The position numbers and the translations under genes are program-made. The notes beneath the pieces were generated by a model. It was not told the origin of the DNA and ran no database searches. It saw only the letters and a list, made by a program, of their open reading frames with translations. A stretch of 62,986 nt of DNA from Deltaproteobacteria bacterium (GTDB lineage: Bacteria; Desulfobacterota; GWC2-55-46). The stretch is taken from NCBI GenBank assembly GCA_020846435.1, contig JADLDY010000029.1:1-62986 (forward strand), read 5' to 3'. This document shows, one piece after another, positions 40,939 to 56,249 of the stretch (position 1 is its first letter; each line of letters begins with the position of its first letter).

Positions 40939-42069
40939 ATGAAAAAAATAAAGGTCTGGGACCTGCCCACGCGTCTTTTCCACTGGTCGTTCGCCGCCGC
41001 TTTTCTCAGCGCGTTTGCCGCCTCTTCGAGGGAATGGTTTCTCGATTATCATGTGCTCTCAGGTTCCATTGTCCTGGGCCTTGTCGCCTTCAGGGTAGTC
41101 TGGGGCTTTTCAGGCAACCCGAACGCCAGGTTCAGCAGTTTTGTCAGGGGATGGAGCGAGACAAAGGGCTTTCTTTCGGGGCTCCTGAGGCTCTCTCCAG
41201 CCAGATACCCCGGGCATAACCCGGCTGTCGCCTGGGTCATACTGGCGATGCTTTTGTTCGCGTCTGTCCTTGCCGCTACCGGCATTATAGTCTATTCCGG
41301 CGAGGAGATGAGGGGGCCTTTCGTAGGGTTCTTCAGCTTCGAGACGGCTGAGAAAGCCGGTCTTATTCATTCAATCGCCGCCTATTCGTTCCTCGCTATC
41401 GCCGCTGTCCATGTAGCCGCGGCGCTCCTTCATGACATCATCTGGAAGGAAGGGCTCATAATATCGATGCTGACGGGCTCTAAAGCCGTAGAAGGCGTAC
41501 ATGATGCTCCGGTCGTTGAGAGGCCGCTCCTGAAAAAGGGCGCTTTCGCGGTCCTCGGCGCGGTGACAATAAGCGCCGTCCTGGTGGTGCTCCCGGGGCA
41601 TAAGGACGCCTCTGGCTTTACGCGCACTCTTCTGGAAGACCAGGGCGGGCTTCGCGCCCTCGAGAGGAACGCGCTCTACGAGGAGGAGTGCGGCTCATGC
41701 CACAACGCTTTGAGCCCGACGCTCCTGCCGGCGAGGTCCTGGGAGAAGGTTATGGCCGGCCTTGGCGAGCATTTCGGAGACGACGCTTCATTGCCTGAGG
41801 AGACTTCAGCGGAGATCTTGAAGTGGCTTGCCGCTTCCTCGGCAGACCACGCCTTCTCCGAGCCGTCCAAAAAGATGATAAGCTCCATTGGAGACAAGAC
41901 CCCTCTGAGGATAACCGAGGTATCGTACTGGAAGCGCAAGCACTCTGACATCGGCAACGATGTGTTTTCAAGAAAAGGCGTCTCGAGCAGGACAAACTGC
42001 GCTGCATGCCACCCTGGCGCGCCGCTCGGTTCTTTCGACGACAGGGACATATCCATCCCCAGGGGATGA
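40939..42069 (+). CDS. Cytochrome b561 fused to a diheme cytochrome c domain
   Basis: The 376-residue protein begins with a four-span prokaryotic cytochrome b561 domain (WDLPTRLFHWSFA; heme-binding histidines in HW, YHVLSG, LIHSIAAYSF and AVHVAAALLHD). A further span (about residue 205) leads to a periplasmic DHC domain with two heme sites, CGSCH and CAACH, and the family block LPARSWEKVM. It could pass electrons from the quinone pool to the SHP and DHC proteins encoded next. A stand-alone DHC gene lies two genes downstream, so the fusion looks like a duplication of that domain. Confidence 0.88.
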   Translation: MKKIKVWDLPTRLFHWSFAAAFLSAFAASSREWFLDYHVLSGSIVLGLVAFRVVWGFSGNPNARFSSFVRGWSETKGFLSGLLRLSPARYPGHNPAVAWVILAMLLFASVLAATGIIVYSGEEMRGPFVGFFSFETAEKAGLIHSIAAYSFLAIAAVHVAAALLHDIIWKEGLIISMLTGSKAVEGVHDAPVVERPLLKKGAFAVLGAVTISAVLVVLPGHKDASGFTRTLLEDQGGLRALERNALYEEECGSCHNALSPTLLPARSWEKVMAGLGEHFGDDASLPEETSAEILKWLAASSADHAFSEPSKKMISSIGDKTPLRITEVSYWKRKHSDIGNDVFSRKGVSSRTNCAACHPGAPLGSFDDRDISIPRG

Positions 42070-44545: not shown

Positions 44546-44764
44546 ATGAAGCCTGTACTTATGGCGCTCTTGATAGCGCTGGCCGCCTTGTCCGTGTCGG
44601 GATGCGCGAGGGTCAAGCCCTGGGAGAGGGAGCATCTCGCCGACCCCATCATGCAGTTCGACGTCAACAAGGAAGAGCGCGCCGTGCGCGAGCATTTCCT
44701 CGGCACGAGGGAGGGGAGCGCCGGAAGTTTCGGCGTGAGCGGAGGCGGCTGTGGGTGCAATTAA
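44546..44764 (+). CDS. DUF4266 lipoprotein
   Basis: The 72-residue precursor has a lipobox (VSGC near residue 20), so about 52 residues remain after processing. The DUF4266 signature is visible: VKPWEREHLADPIM, then RAVREHFLGTREGS and the C-terminal GGGCGCN with two cysteines. AAGGAG precedes the ATG. The family travels with DUF3570 and a thioredoxin, as here; a thiol or metal role of the CGC tail is an inference. Confidence 0.87.
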   Translation: MKPVLMALLIALAALSVSGCARVKPWEREHLADPIMQFDVNKEERAVREHFLGTREGSAGSFGVSGGGCGCN

Positions 44765-45899
44765 AAGGCTCGCGGCTTCAGCCGCCATTTTCTTCGCCAT
44801 TGCCGGAGTCTCTTTCGCCGAGGACTACGCGGCTGTCCAGGGCTATGTGCACAGCTTCAACAACGGAGTATCCGTATACTCCGGCGTATTTGCCCTTAAC
44901 AAGGATGTCTCCCTTGACACAACTGTCAGCTTCAAGTACGCGGTCGACCTCATAAACCCGGACGGTGAAGATGACGATGACGATGAAGGCGGCGGAGTAG
45001 CCGTTGTCTCCGGCGCTTCCAGCGCGCTCAGCGGCGGGAGCGACACCAGGCATGCCGTAACAGCTGGAGTGGCGCACAACTTCTCCAACATCATCGGGGT
45101 AGAGGCGTACTATGATTACAGCTTCGAGAAGGACTATTCTTCGAGCACTCCGACGCTGACCCTCAAAAAAGACCTCTTCGACAAGAACACGACCCTCACG
45201 GCCGGGTACTCGAGGAACTCCGACACCATAGACGGCCAGTTCATGACAGGCGAGGAAGACCGGACGACAGACAACTTCTTTTTAGGTCTCACCCAGGTAT
45301 TGTCCCCGGTCATGGTCGCGCAGCTCGGCTACTCTCACTCTGCTTCGAGCGGGTATCTTTCCGAAGGCATAAGGCTCGTGCCTCTTGGAGCGGCAGACCC
45401 CGCGACCTGCGTCGCCGTCTCGGTAGACTGCGCCCTTGAGGCCTTCCCTTCCGAGAGAAAGCGGGACGCCTACCTCATAGGCTTGAGCCGCTACTTCACG
45501 GAGGGGCTCGGCGGCCTTCTCGACAGGTCAGCGGTGAAGCTCTCGTTCAGGTACTACGACGATTCGTGGGACGTAAGCTCCTGGATGGGAGAGGCCGAGT
45601 TCCATAAATACCTCGACGAGAGCCTCATAATGAGGCTCAATTACAGGTACTACACGCAGTCCGCGGCCTTTTTCGTTAAGGACACCTACGCGGCGCCCGA
45701 CGTCTACAAGAGCTCGTCCCCGCAGATTGAGGAGAAGGACACGAACCTCGTCGGGATCAAATTCACATATCTCCTCTCTCAGCCGGCACAGGCATGGAAG
45801 CTCTCGGTTAATTCGCTTGAAGCCAAGTATGAGTACTACACAGAGTCGATCGGGGTCGACGCTCACATTCTCATGGGCGGCTTGAGGATGAGTTTCTGA
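44751..45899 (+). CDS. DUF3570 outer-membrane beta-barrel
   Basis: The 382-residue precursor has a signal peptide and alternating aromatic/hydrophobic beta-strands ending in a C-terminal phenylalanine (GGLRMSF), the mark of an outer-membrane barrel. An Asp/Glu-rich loop (EDDDDDE) lies near residue 75. GTG at 44751 overlaps the DUF4266 stop by 14 bases and uses a GGAGG inside that gene. The set TlpA/DUF4266/DUF3570/ApbE occurs together in other bacteria and suggests an envelope redox function. Confidence 0.85.
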   Translation: MGAIKRLAASAAIFFAIAGVSFAEDYAAVQGYVHSFNNGVSVYSGVFALNKDVSLDTTVSFKYAVDLINPDGEDDDDDEGGGVAVVSGASSALSGGSDTRHAVTAGVAHNFSNIIGVEAYYDYSFEKDYSSSTPTLTLKKDLFDKNTTLTAGYSRNSDTIDGQFMTGEEDRTTDNFFLGLTQVLSPVMVAQLGYSHSASSGYLSEGIRLVPLGAADPATCVAVSVDCALEAFPSERKRDAYLIGLSRYFTEGLGGLLDRSAVKLSFRYYDDSWDVSSWMGEAEFHKYLDESLIMRLNYRYYTQSAAFFVKDTYAAPDVYKSSSPQIEEKDTNLVGIKFTYLLSQPAQAWKLSVNSLEAKYEYYTESIGVDAHILMGGLRMSF

Positions 45900-45923: not shown

Positions 45924-45955
45924 TGGCCGGGGAGCTGCCCCGGCCTTTTCTTTTT
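45924..45955 (+). terminator. Terminator after the DUF3570 gene
   Basis: GGCCGGGG and CCCCGGCC arms with an AGCTG-type loop, then TTTTCTTTTT. It separates the DUF3570 operon from the next promoter. Confidence 0.85.
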
Positions 45956-45974: not shown

Positions 45975-46008
45975 TCTAATAATCCCTTAATGTAAGGTTG
46001 GATATACT
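45975..46008 (+). promoter_or_regulatory. Tandem YYTAAT-box promoter D (small-RNA candidate)
   Basis: TCTAAT (45975-45980), 5 bp, CTTAAT (45986-45991), 11 bp, TATACT (46003-46008). The transcript would start near 46015 and reach a terminator at 46118-46148 before apbE. Confidence 0.7.
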
Positions 46009-46014
46009 CAGTCG

Positions 46015-46148
46015 TACAATAAGAATATTCCATTTGCCATCCCGGACGGCCTGTCCGTCCTTTTCCATACCGCAAAACTCCATTCACAAAAAACATCCCG
46101 CTCCCCAACCCGCCTTAGGAGAGGCTCAGCGCCTCTCCGCTTTTTTTT
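46015..46148 (+). ncRNA. Candidate small RNA or apbE leader, about 134 nt
   Basis: The stretch runs from the start predicted for promoter D to a strong terminator and has no supported coding frame: no ATG lies in it and no start has a ribosome-binding site. It contains a small hairpin (CGGAC/GTCCG, 46043-46057), a long unpaired C-rich linker including CATCCCGCTCCCC, and the terminator hairpin GGAGAGGC/GCCTCTCC with eight T. C-rich unpaired segments can pair with Shine-Dalgarno sequences. The alternative is a terminated leader that controls apbE by attenuation. Confidence 0.5.
46118..46148 (+). terminator. Strong terminator upstream of apbE
   Basis: GGAGAGGC (46118-46125), loop TCAGC, GCCTCTCC (46131-46138), then GC and eight T (46141-46148). 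The apbE start is 56 bases downstream. Confidence 0.9.
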
Positions 46149-46167: not shown

Positions 46168-46196
46168 TTCAAGCATCCTCTTTTTTCTGATATCAT
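46168..46196 (+). promoter_or_regulatory. Possible leaderless promoter of apbE
   Basis: TTCAAG (46168-46173), 17 bp, TATCAT (46191-46196); the ATG follows at 46204. The -35 is a weak match. Confidence 0.35.
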
Positions 46197-46203
46197 TCCT
46201 TTT

Positions 46204-47196
46204 ATGAAAAAGCTGATTTTTCTCGCGGTATCTGCTGTATTCCTGCTTGTTTTTGATTGTTCGGCGGGACAAGGCGCGACCTACAAAAAAGACTCTTCAG
46301 TCATGGGCACGGCCCTTGAGGTTACGCTTTCGGCCCCTTCGCGGGAAGAGGCTGACGCCGCTTTCAGTTCAGTGGAACGCGAGATGAAGAGGCTCGATTC
46401 TCTCCTCAGCGAGTGGATTAAGACATCTCCCGTCTCTGAAGTGAACAGGGCCGCGGGGAAAAAGCCGGTCAAGGTGCCAGCGGAGCTCTTCAATGTCATC
46501 GAAGCGGCCCTGCGGGTCTCAGAGGTGTCAGAGGGCGCGTTTGACATCACATGGGCGTCGATGAGAGGGCTCTGGGATTTCAGAGCAGGCTACGAGAGGG
46601 TGCCCGCTGATGAAGATGTGAGGGCGAGGCTCGGCCTTGTCGATTACAGGGATGTCGTCATCGACCCCGTCATGAGCACCGTCTTTCTCAAGAGGAAGGG
46701 CATGGCTATCGGCCTCGGCGGGATCGCCAAGGGCTACGCCGTAGACAAGGCCATGGAGTCTGTCTTGAAGTCCGGTATAAGGAACGCCATCATAAAGGCC
46801 GGTGGGGACATAAGGGTGCAGGGGAGGGCTGAAGGCTCATCCGGATGGGAGGTCGGCATACAGGACCCGAGGGATAGAAAGCGTCTCCTGGCAAAGCTCA
46901 CTTTGACCAATGTATCCATCTCGACTTCCGGCGACTACGAGAGGTTTTTCATAAAGGGCGGCCAATTGTACCACCACATAATGGACCCCGGGACTGGCTT
47001 TCCGGCAACAAGGGCGAGGAGCGTTACGATAATAGGGCCTGACACCATGACGACCGACGCGCTTTCGACCGCCATATTCGTGCTCGGGCCGGTCAAGGGC
47101 ATGGCCCTTGTGGAAAAACTCCCCGGTGTCGAGGCTGTAATCGTCGACAGCGCGGGCTCTGTCACCTCCTCCGGCGGCATAGCGCTCGGACGCTGA
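46204..47196 (+). CDS. apbE: FAD:protein FMN transferase ApbE
   Basis: The 330-residue exported protein attaches FMN to threonine residues of envelope flavoproteins. It has a signal peptide and the family motifs VMGTALEVTL, GGIAKGYAVDKAM, IIKAGGDIRVQG, YHHIMDPGTGFPA and TTDALSTAIFVLG. No obvious FMN-accepting protein is encoded next to it in the window, so its client is unknown. The ATG lacks a ribosome-binding site and may be on a leaderless mRNA. It follows the DUF3570 cluster, with which ApbE often co-occurs. Confidence 0.92.
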   Translation: MKKLIFLAVSAVFLLVFDCSAGQGATYKKDSSVMGTALEVTLSAPSREEADAAFSSVEREMKRLDSLLSEWIKTSPVSEVNRAAGKKPVKVPAELFNVIEAALRVSEVSEGAFDITWASMRGLWDFRAGYERVPADEDVRARLGLVDYRDVVIDPVMSTVFLKRKGMAIGLGGIAKGYAVDKAMESVLKSGIRNAIIKAGGDIRVQGRAEGSSGWEVGIQDPRDRKRLLAKLTLTNVSISTSGDYERFFIKGGQLYHHIMDPGTGFPATRARSVTIIGPDTMTTDALSTAIFVLGPVKGMALVEKLPGVEAVIVDSAGSVTSSGGIALGR

Positions 47197-54231: not shown

Positions 54232-54308
54232 AAATTGAACTGATACGCTCAAAAAGCTAATTTTTTTAAAATGTAGATAATTCAAGTGGTTATGTCTTTT
54301 GAGGGAAC

Positions 54309-54325
54309 TTGGCACGCTTCTTGTA
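54309..54325 (+). promoter_or_regulatory. Sigma-54 promoter of the P3-P4 peptide genes
   Basis: TTGGCAC (54309-54315), five bases, TTGTA (54321-54325). The GG and G of the -24/-12 elements are ten bases apart as required; the -12 has GT in place of GC. Transcription should start near 54336. Confidence 0.65.
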
Positions 54326-54384
54326 TATAGAAGAATGCAAGCAATACGGACTGTAGTAAGAAACAGGACGGTCAGAGGGACTCG

Positions 54385-54486
54385 ATGGTCTGTAAAATGG
54401 TTTGCAGAAGGGATGTACTGGCACTGTTACTCGGGCTGACCGGGCTGGTTCTGCTCGGCATGGAGAAAGCACTGGGCTTTTTTTAG
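54385..54486 (+). CDS. 33-residue membrane peptide (P3)
   Basis: ATG at 54385 to TAG at 54484. The start is Cys/Arg-rich (MVCKMVCRRD), followed by a leucine-rich span of about 16 residues and a short tail. The ribosome-binding site is weak (GAGGGA), and an alternative ATG lies four codons in. It is the first frame after the sigma-54 promoter. No family is recognised; it is less certain than P4. Confidence 0.4.
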   Translation: MVCKMVCRRDVLALLLGLTGLVLLGMEKALGFF

Positions 54487-54559
54487 GGCGGTTTGCTGAT
54501 CCTTACTGACAATTAATTGAGCATGACCAAGCCCTGGAACAGAGCGCAAGGAGGAAAAA

Positions 54560-54643
54560 ATGAAAAAGATGACTTTGAACGTATTAGAGGTGATCGCCCA
54601 TCTGGCGGTCGTGGTAACGATAATAATCGCGGTTGCCAGATAA
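54560..54643 (+). CDS. 27-residue single-span membrane peptide (P4)
   Basis: ATG at 54560 with AAGGAGG seven bases upstream, TAA at 54641. The start MKKMTLNVLEVIAH leads into a span of Val/Ile/Ala and ends in Arg. It resembles P5 (56340-56423), which has the same length, a similar start and a final Arg. It is downstream of P3 and probably on the same sigma-54 transcript. Confidence 0.65.
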   Translation: MKKMTLNVLEVIAHLAVVVTIIIAVAR

Positions 54644-54875: not shown

Positions 54876-56249
54876 ATGGAGCTTGAGAAGATAGAGCAAA
54901 ACCCCGGGGCTGTTCACAAGTACCTTGAGATAAACAGCGATATCATCCTGAACAGCATCGCTGACGGCGTTGTCGTGCTGGGGCTTGACCATAAGATACT
55001 CTTCATAAACCGCGCCGCCAGGGAGCTCCTCGGCAGGCCTGAGGCTGAAGACCTGCTCAAGACCGGAAAATGCAGCGACGTGCTCGGTCACTCGGGCTGC
55101 TCTTTTGACTGCCTTATCAACAGGACCATAAAGACGGGCGAGCATCTCTATAATTACGACGTAACGCTCGAGCGCGGCAATAAGAGGATAACTCTCAGCA
55201 TCAATACCGCGCTCCTCAAGGACGAGCAGGGCAAGGTAATAGGCGGCATAGAGATATTCAGGGACAACTCCCTCATAAGGGAGCTCAAGGAAGAGATAAA
55301 AGGGCGCTATACCTTTGAGAAAATAGTCGGAAAGAATTACAGGATGCATGAGGTCTTCGAACTCCTCCGCGAGGTCGCGCCGACCAAGGCGACAGTCCTC
55401 ATTGAGGGCGAGACAGGCACAGGCAAGGAGCTCATCGCCAACGCCATCCATCATAACTCCCCGAGGTCTGAAGGGGCCTTCATAAAGGTCAACTGCGCGG
55501 CTCTCTCAGAGGGGCTCCTTGAAAGCGAGCTCTTCGGCCACGTAAAGGGAGCCTTCACAGGCGCCATAAGCGACAAGGTCGGCAGGTTCGAGCTGGCTGA
55601 CAACGGCACTATCTTCCTCGACGAGGTCGGCGACATAACCATGCATACGCAGGTCAAACTCCTGAGGGTCCTTCAGGAGGGCGAGTTCGAGAGAGTGGGG
55701 GGCACGAAGACGCAGAAGGTAGACGCGCGCGTCATCACGGCGACCAACAAGGACCTGAAAGCGATGGTCGAGGCAGGAGAGTTCAGGGAGGACCTCTATT
55801 ACAGGCTCAAGGTCGTACCCATACGCCTTCCGGCGCTGCGCGAGAGGAAAGACGACATACCCATACTCGTCAGGTATTTTCTCGACAAGTTCAACCGCGA
55901 GATGAAGATGGAGGTTACGAACATCTCCGCGCCCGCCATGGAACAGCTGATGGATTATGATTACCCCGGCAACATAAGGGAGCTCGAGCACGTCATAGAG
56001 CACGCCTTTGTCCGCTGCCAGGGCAGGACGATAAACTCCGAGCACCTGCCCAAGGACCTTCAGGCAAGAGGCGTCATAGAAAGGGTCATGTCCACTGAAG
56101 AGCCTTTGAAGGCCCTTGAAAAGGAGATGATCATGAAGGCTCTTGTCGAGACCGGCTGGAGGTATGGAGACGCGGCCGCAAAGCTCAGCATGAGCAGGAC
56201 GACTCTCTGGCGCAGGATCAGGGAGCTCGGGATACAGAAGGGCTCATAG
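54876..56249 (+). CDS. PAS-domain sigma-54-dependent activator
   Basis: The 457-residue regulator has a PAS domain (about 20-130), an AAA+ domain and a Fis-type helix-turn-helix at the C-terminus ([17 protein letters not shown]). The PAS contains a cysteine cluster, [14 protein letters not shown], that could hold a metal or sense redox. The AAA+ part has Walker A GETGTGKE, the canonical sigma-54-contact loop GAFTGA and Walker B LDEVGD. No receiver domain, so it senses a signal directly. ATG at 54876 has GAGGAGG. Palindromes in front of it and of the P3-P4 promoter are its likely targets. Confidence 0.9.

Follow-up and report, generated by a model that had tools for sequence, protein, structure and literature searches.

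A candidate C-rich small RNA gene between DUF3570 and apbE genes, with microprotein-encoding relatives

The window analysed here, a stretch of DNA of 62,986 nucleotides, very probably holds a genuine and conserved RNA gene that lacks an open reading frame (ORF), located in the 304-base gap between the end of a DUF3570 gene (45899) and the start of apbE (46204). Judged from the sequence, positions 46014-46148 appear to form a self-contained transcription unit. At a probability of roughly 0.6, we propose that it encodes a C-rich small RNA that acts in trans by base pairing; the most likely form of this reading is a two-component-controlled, Hfq-independent RNA that has a CUCCCC seed and the layout of SgrS/T and VcdRP, except that the ORF is missing. 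It would represent an undescribed small RNA family in an uncultivated, groundwater-type lineage where Hfq was not found. The features of the locus, with their conservation in two congeneric genomes (G001 and G003) and in one of another genus (G029), are:

44751-45899, forward strand: DUF3570 gene (PF12094), the final upstream gene
45925-45955, forward strand: intrinsic terminator of the upstream DUF3570 operon, GGCCGGGGAGCTGCCCCGGCC-TTTTCTTTTT, with 8 GC pairs and a T-rich tail
45976-45991, forward strand: tandem direct-repeat box CTAAT-N6-TTAAT with an 11-bp period (CTAAT 45976-45980; TTAAT 45987-45991), a presumed OmpR/PhoB-type site replacing the -35 element
46003-46008, forward strand: -10 element TATACT, 11 nt past the second box
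46014-46148, forward strand: candidate small RNA of ~135 nt, its start inferred from the -10 element and its end set at the T-run
46037-46043, forward strand: first C-rich motif, CCATCCC, unpaired and immediately 5' of hairpin 1; invariant in G001, G003 and G029
46044-46060, forward strand: hairpin 1, GGACGG/CCGTCC, with one compensatory pair (A-U to G-C) between congeners
46096-46116, forward strand: conserved, unpaired C-rich segment TCCCGCTCCCCAACCCGCCTT, the presumed base-pairing seed
46096-46106, forward strand: invariant core TCCCGCTCCCC of the C-rich segment
46118-46148, forward strand: intrinsic terminator GGAGAGGC/GCCTCTCC plus T8 (stem 46118-46138), with one compensatory pair between congeners
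46168-46203, forward strand: promoter-like element of apbE, CTTCA ... CTGATATCAT, conserved in G001 and G003 and ending 7 nt before the ATG
46204-47196, forward strand: apbE (FAD:protein FMN transferase family; PF02424), downstream

A sequence-only reading of this locus had described two terminators, a tandem-box promoter, a hairpin and the C-rich segment, and every one of these was recovered, position for position. Its central proposal of a promoter sending a transcript into a terminator is supported by a tandem box that occurs beyond chance and by the conservation of promoter and terminator in the congeners. It had also seen no coding frame, and the window RNA indeed contains no ORF of at least 8 codons; reading frames were likewise absent from the RNA in G001 and G029, while the copies in G003 and on contig C9 of G005 have only unconserved TTG-start frames. 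Thus no conserved coding frame lies within the small RNA, and conservation is not confined to the terminator. The terminator at 45925-45955, which was also found by sequence in G001 and G003, appears to shield the small RNA gene from the upstream operon, as had been suggested. Taken together with ORF-less homologues elsewhere, the conservation, the promoter and terminator of its own and the missing frame set this gene apart from its neighbours.

The whole gap between the DUF3570 gene and apbE could be aligned with G001 and G003. In 20-column windows, three-way identity reached 95% over the promoter and 75-80% over the C-rich block and terminator, while most linkers fell to 15-45%. The -10 element TATACT is invariant in both congeners, with TATAAT in its place in the homologues. 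Of the 21 bases of the C-rich block, TCCCGCTCCCCARCCCGCCTT, 20 are invariant in the three congeners, and a single difference separates the block from that on contig C18 of G005. Both helices, hairpin 1 and the terminator, are kept in all three congeners, each with one compensatory change; every helix cell is paired, and the two compensatory pairs compare with none in slid controls, a result from three sequences only. The window RNA has a predicted folding energy of -27.0 kcal/mol (z = -2.9 versus shuffles), and the segment at 46096-46116 is unpaired in this predicted fold. Rfam scans at both gathering-score and relaxed thresholds returned nothing relevant, with no match to a known RNA family, and the small RNA was not found in G002, a genome that is 79% complete.

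A covariance model was built from the three ORF-less RNAs (window, G001 and G003), with the promoter outside the model. The sequence-only reading had called for such a search in related genomes, and it uncovered two further ORF-less copies in two more genera, at G029:C153 (51.7 bits) and G005:C9 (48.7 bits). Both have TAAT-N6-TTAAT-N11-TATAAT directly upstream and, the model having been built without the promoter, its presence at both new copies lends independent support. The G005:C9 copy sits in a row of microprotein genes. The other lies immediately before a TetR gene, with no apbE between, and this TetR gene is the orthologue (67% identity) of the one that follows apbE in the window; the G029 bin has a completeness of 77% and a contamination of 4%. 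A five-sequence covariance model, run over 63 genomes of the class, found nothing outside this family. Pattern matches L087-L090 were rejected as homologues, being apparently coding or unrelated sequence without the architecture of the RNA.

Homologues that do carry an ORF were found directly before apbE in G005 (genus g3) and in four genomes of another genus, g10. In these relatives the slot holds an ORF of 28-37 residues with one likely membrane span (e.g., MSSKMDGRNGIMTTTGIFELIANLAIIVTIVSAVFMP); after it come the same C-rich block and then a terminator of the GGGGAGGC/GCCTCCCC type. A paralogue within the window's own genome, on contig C26, has two microprotein ORFs and shares the 3' module, with TTCCCGCTCC... 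and the same terminator type. The ApbE tree places the window's genus (g1) as sister to g10 (92/94), and G005 falls outside. Because the ORF is present in both G005 and g10, and the C-rich block of G005 is near-identical to that of the window, the simplest history would be that the ORF was lost in g1 and that the RNA descends from a family of microprotein mRNAs. With homologues still in the coding state, the passage from a small-protein mRNA to a regulatory RNA can be traced locus by locus.

The promoter of the window small RNA was not called by a generic sigma-70 scan, as the tandem boxes stand in for a -35 element. Across five genomes the pattern TAAT-N6-YTAAT-N10/11-TANNNT occurs at 75 sites, against 6 for a reversed control; the own genome accounts for 19 sites, against 1 in the control. 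The genes behind the own-genome sites, named by reading their sequences, include those for two small cytochromes c, for a cytochrome b and for several membrane microproteins, as well as a hemA-like gene; the sites in relatives add whole rows of microproteins. The small RNA promoter appears to be part of a regulon of cytochromes, a hemA-like gene and many microproteins, and the locus opens a view of this regulon, with its direct-repeat box, its cytochromes and its many membrane microproteins outside any Pfam or NCBIfam family. Among all tandem-box sites, a (C/T)CGTAA-like sequence often lies a few bases past the -10 element, close to where transcription would be expected to start.

Sites of OmpR/PhoB-family regulators typically show direct repeats that are spaced by one turn of the helix and placed ~11 nt ahead of the -10 element (PMC3335776, PMC3798270, PMC5253667). 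The PhoP, ArcA and HP1043 boxes similarly consist of two short direct repeats, 11 bp centre-to-centre, that are recognised by members of this family (PMC3335776, PMC3798270, PMC5253667), and in PhoP class II promoters the repeats lie ~12 nt before the -10 element (PMC3335776). The window box differs from these in its YTAAT repeat, in a cytochrome and microprotein regulon of its own, and in having a regulator that is predicted only. The own-genome search found just two OmpR-family regulators. One is encoded at G000:C29:26723-30054 (L141), where a cytochrome b, an OmpR-family response regulator and a histidine kinase form one run behind a tandem box; the other, in a PhoB-PhoR-like pair on contig C50, has no such box. 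With only two such regulators, one of them in a box-headed operon, the C29 regulator-kinase pair is the natural candidate and the probable regulator of the tandem-box regulon. The pairing of the box with a cytochrome b gene recurs in G001. Assignment to a Pho regulon was considered and rejected: the box is Pho-like, yet the own-genome sites precede cytochromes, the hemA-like gene and microproteins, no pst or pho genes were seen behind them, and the box is absent at the PhoB-like gene on C50.

A separate match lies at G003:C71:1170-1193 (L015), where a nuoC-like gene has a -10 and start region that agrees with the small RNA promoter at 23 of 24 bases, directly after an apparent inserted inverted-repeat element. 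As a small RNA homologue it was discarded, since it is a nuoC-like promoter region with only the -10 and start region in common.

Several characterised RNAs resemble the proposed one. VcdRP of Vibrio cholerae carries a 29-aa ORF and a CCCC seed before its terminator, and the four C's pair with translation-initiation sites (PMC8672173). This order recurs in relatives of the window RNA, with an ORF of ~29 residues, a conserved 3' C-run and an intrinsic terminator; the window copy, in contrast, has no ORF, and VcdR depends on Hfq, for which the search in this genome found no gene. VcdP is reported to bind citrate synthase, whereas the microproteins here look membrane-spanning, and no sequence relation was seen. 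In SgrS of enteric bacteria the ORF also lies upstream of a conserved region that precedes the terminator, and the sgrT ORF is missing in Yersinia while the pairing region is retained (PMC4021124). The dual-function type has a small-protein ORF in the same transcript, which the g3 and g10 homologues carry and the window's genus lacks; the C-rich block is conserved and lies where a region between ORF and terminator would be predicted to pair. SgrS differs in its Hfq-binding terminator domain and its activation by SgrR, and the window RNA has no Rfam match. For C-rich RNAs, the unpaired UCCC motifs of LhrC reach mRNA without Hfq and LhrC is under LisRK control (PMC4132741, PMC5419742), while RoxS has C-rich regions, is controlled by the ResDE two-component system and regulates redox genes (PMC5419742, PMC4132741). 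RsaE/RoxS and LhrC share with the window RNA unpaired C-rich motifs complementary to G-rich mRNA sites; they belong to another phylum, the Firmicutes, with no detectable Rfam-level relation, and their pairing is proven where ours is predicted. To our knowledge, no coding ancestor is known for RsaE/RoxS or LhrC.

The C-rich motifs of LhrC and RoxS, the layout of VcdRP and the ORF loss of SgrS are the grounds on which we propose a base-pairing RNA. What the sequence itself shows is the architecture of the locus, its conservation, the absence of the relatives' ORF, the shared promoter box and the independence from apbE. We infer transcription, the identity of the regulator, base pairing and targets, in the following manner. 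An OmpR/PhoB-family regulator, most likely that encoded on G000:C29 beside a cytochrome b and a histidine kinase, would bind the two TAAT boxes and recruit RNA polymerase to TATACT. The transcript would form hairpin 1 and the terminator and leave a C-rich stretch unpaired, and its C-rich UCCCGCUCCCC segment could base-pair with mRNAs at G-rich translation-initiation regions with no need of Hfq, thereby repressing respiratory or membrane genes while the regulon is on. The ancestor would have been a dual-function transcript with a membrane microprotein ORF, the C-rich segment and the terminator, from which the ORF was lost in g1. We offer, as a tentative and rather doubtful extension, that the family exists in two states, either a membrane-microprotein mRNA with a regulatory 3' end or a pure small RNA, and that in its pure form it serves a two-component regulon, composed largely of membrane microproteins and cytochromes, as an RNA arm that tunes how the microprotein or cytochrome mRNAs from which it arose are translated.

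Pairing with ribosome-binding sites had been suggested from the sequence and stays a prediction: the C-rich segment is unpaired and conserved, but no class of targets rises clearly above background. A pattern search for start regions with a perfect complement gave 8, 7 and 5 matches, against 6, 5 and 0 in the control, which is near background. Those matches that recur across genomes proved to be a ZTP riboswitch (RF01750) and what seems to be tolQ coding sequence, and were dismissed as targets. Against the start regions of the window, 5% of shuffles of the C-rich segment pair as well as the segment itself, a slight preference. The strongest candidate in the window is GGGGTTGGGGGAG, before the cytochrome gene at 40939 (-23 kcal/mol), a gene that is itself behind a box; this sequence has no counterpart in G001 and was rejected as a conserved target.

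It is possible, though unlikely, that the RNA is functional and, instead of pairing with mRNA, acts on a protein or on termination or decay, for example if its C-rich, G-poor stretch captures Rho or an RNA-binding protein or titrates a regulator. The region 46062-46117 is mostly unpaired, rich in C and very poor in G, and the C-rich block is retained in mRNAs that still have the ORF, both of which suit such a role. The invariant core TCCCGCTCCCC, however, is sequence-specific and lies beside an intrinsic terminator, which is the seed layout of VcdRP and SgrS. A poorer prospect is that the locus is a functionless relic of a microprotein gene, its promoter and terminator having outlasted the ORF. 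The presence of the ORF in relatives, its disappearance from the window and the lack of signal in the target scans agree with this; the near-invariance of the promoter, of CCATCCC with hairpin 1 and of the 21-base C-rich block, against 15-45% identity in most linkers and flanks (20-column blocks), and the ORF-less copies at different loci in three genera, argue against it.

The sequence-only reading had raised as its alternative an attenuated apbE leader. Such a cis-acting leader, with the C-rich segment as a potential antiterminator against a terminator arm, is largely refuted and very improbable, for although in g1, g3 and g10 apbE is the gene immediately after the RNA, and CTCCCC could pair with the terminator GGGGAG in G001 and G003, the window stem has become GGAGAG/CTCTCC on both arms with CTCCCC unchanged, a conserved promoter-like element (CTTCA...CTGATATCATT) stands after the terminator and just before the apbE ATG, and the RNA occurs without apbE in G029 and inside a microprotein cluster in G005. 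The change of the terminator arms weakens the antiterminator and implies that pairing with that arm is not what keeps CTCCCC constant, the G029 and G005:C9 copies imply that the RNA does not depend on apbE, and apbE itself probably has a separate promoter and a near-leaderless mRNA.

Some further observations were made on the microproteins and other elements. Rows of genes for membrane microproteins of 26-32 residues occur at G005:C9:95753-97281, G012:C10:295800-296351, G000:C26 and G000:C60. Most of these genes have a tandem TAAT box, and those tested are without a Pfam or NCBIfam match; none of ten microproteins tested matched either database at a meaningful score. Within the window, the segment 40740-40917 holds a tandem-box promoter and, behind it, the ORF of a membrane microprotein of 30 residues (MIDEIGIMDLLLVSIFIVSLILFVSTIAFS); the cytochrome b561/dihaem cytochrome gene at 40939 comes next, and G001 has the same pair. 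Membrane microproteins of the same general type are found at 54560-54643 (MKKMTLNVLEVIAHLAVVVTIIIAVAR) and at 417-448, a minus-strand site (MKKAHLILALFVAMIQPTIAVVIVAIM), the second of them behind a tandem box. A ZMP/ZTP riboswitch (RF01750) of the own genome, at G000:C13 near 12489 (L179:1460-1543), is conserved in G001 and G003. Finally, a sigma-54-like promoter, TTGGCACGCTTCTTGTA, lies at ~54308-54324, upstream of small ORFs at 54335-54643 that are followed by a sigma-54-activator-like gene at 54876.
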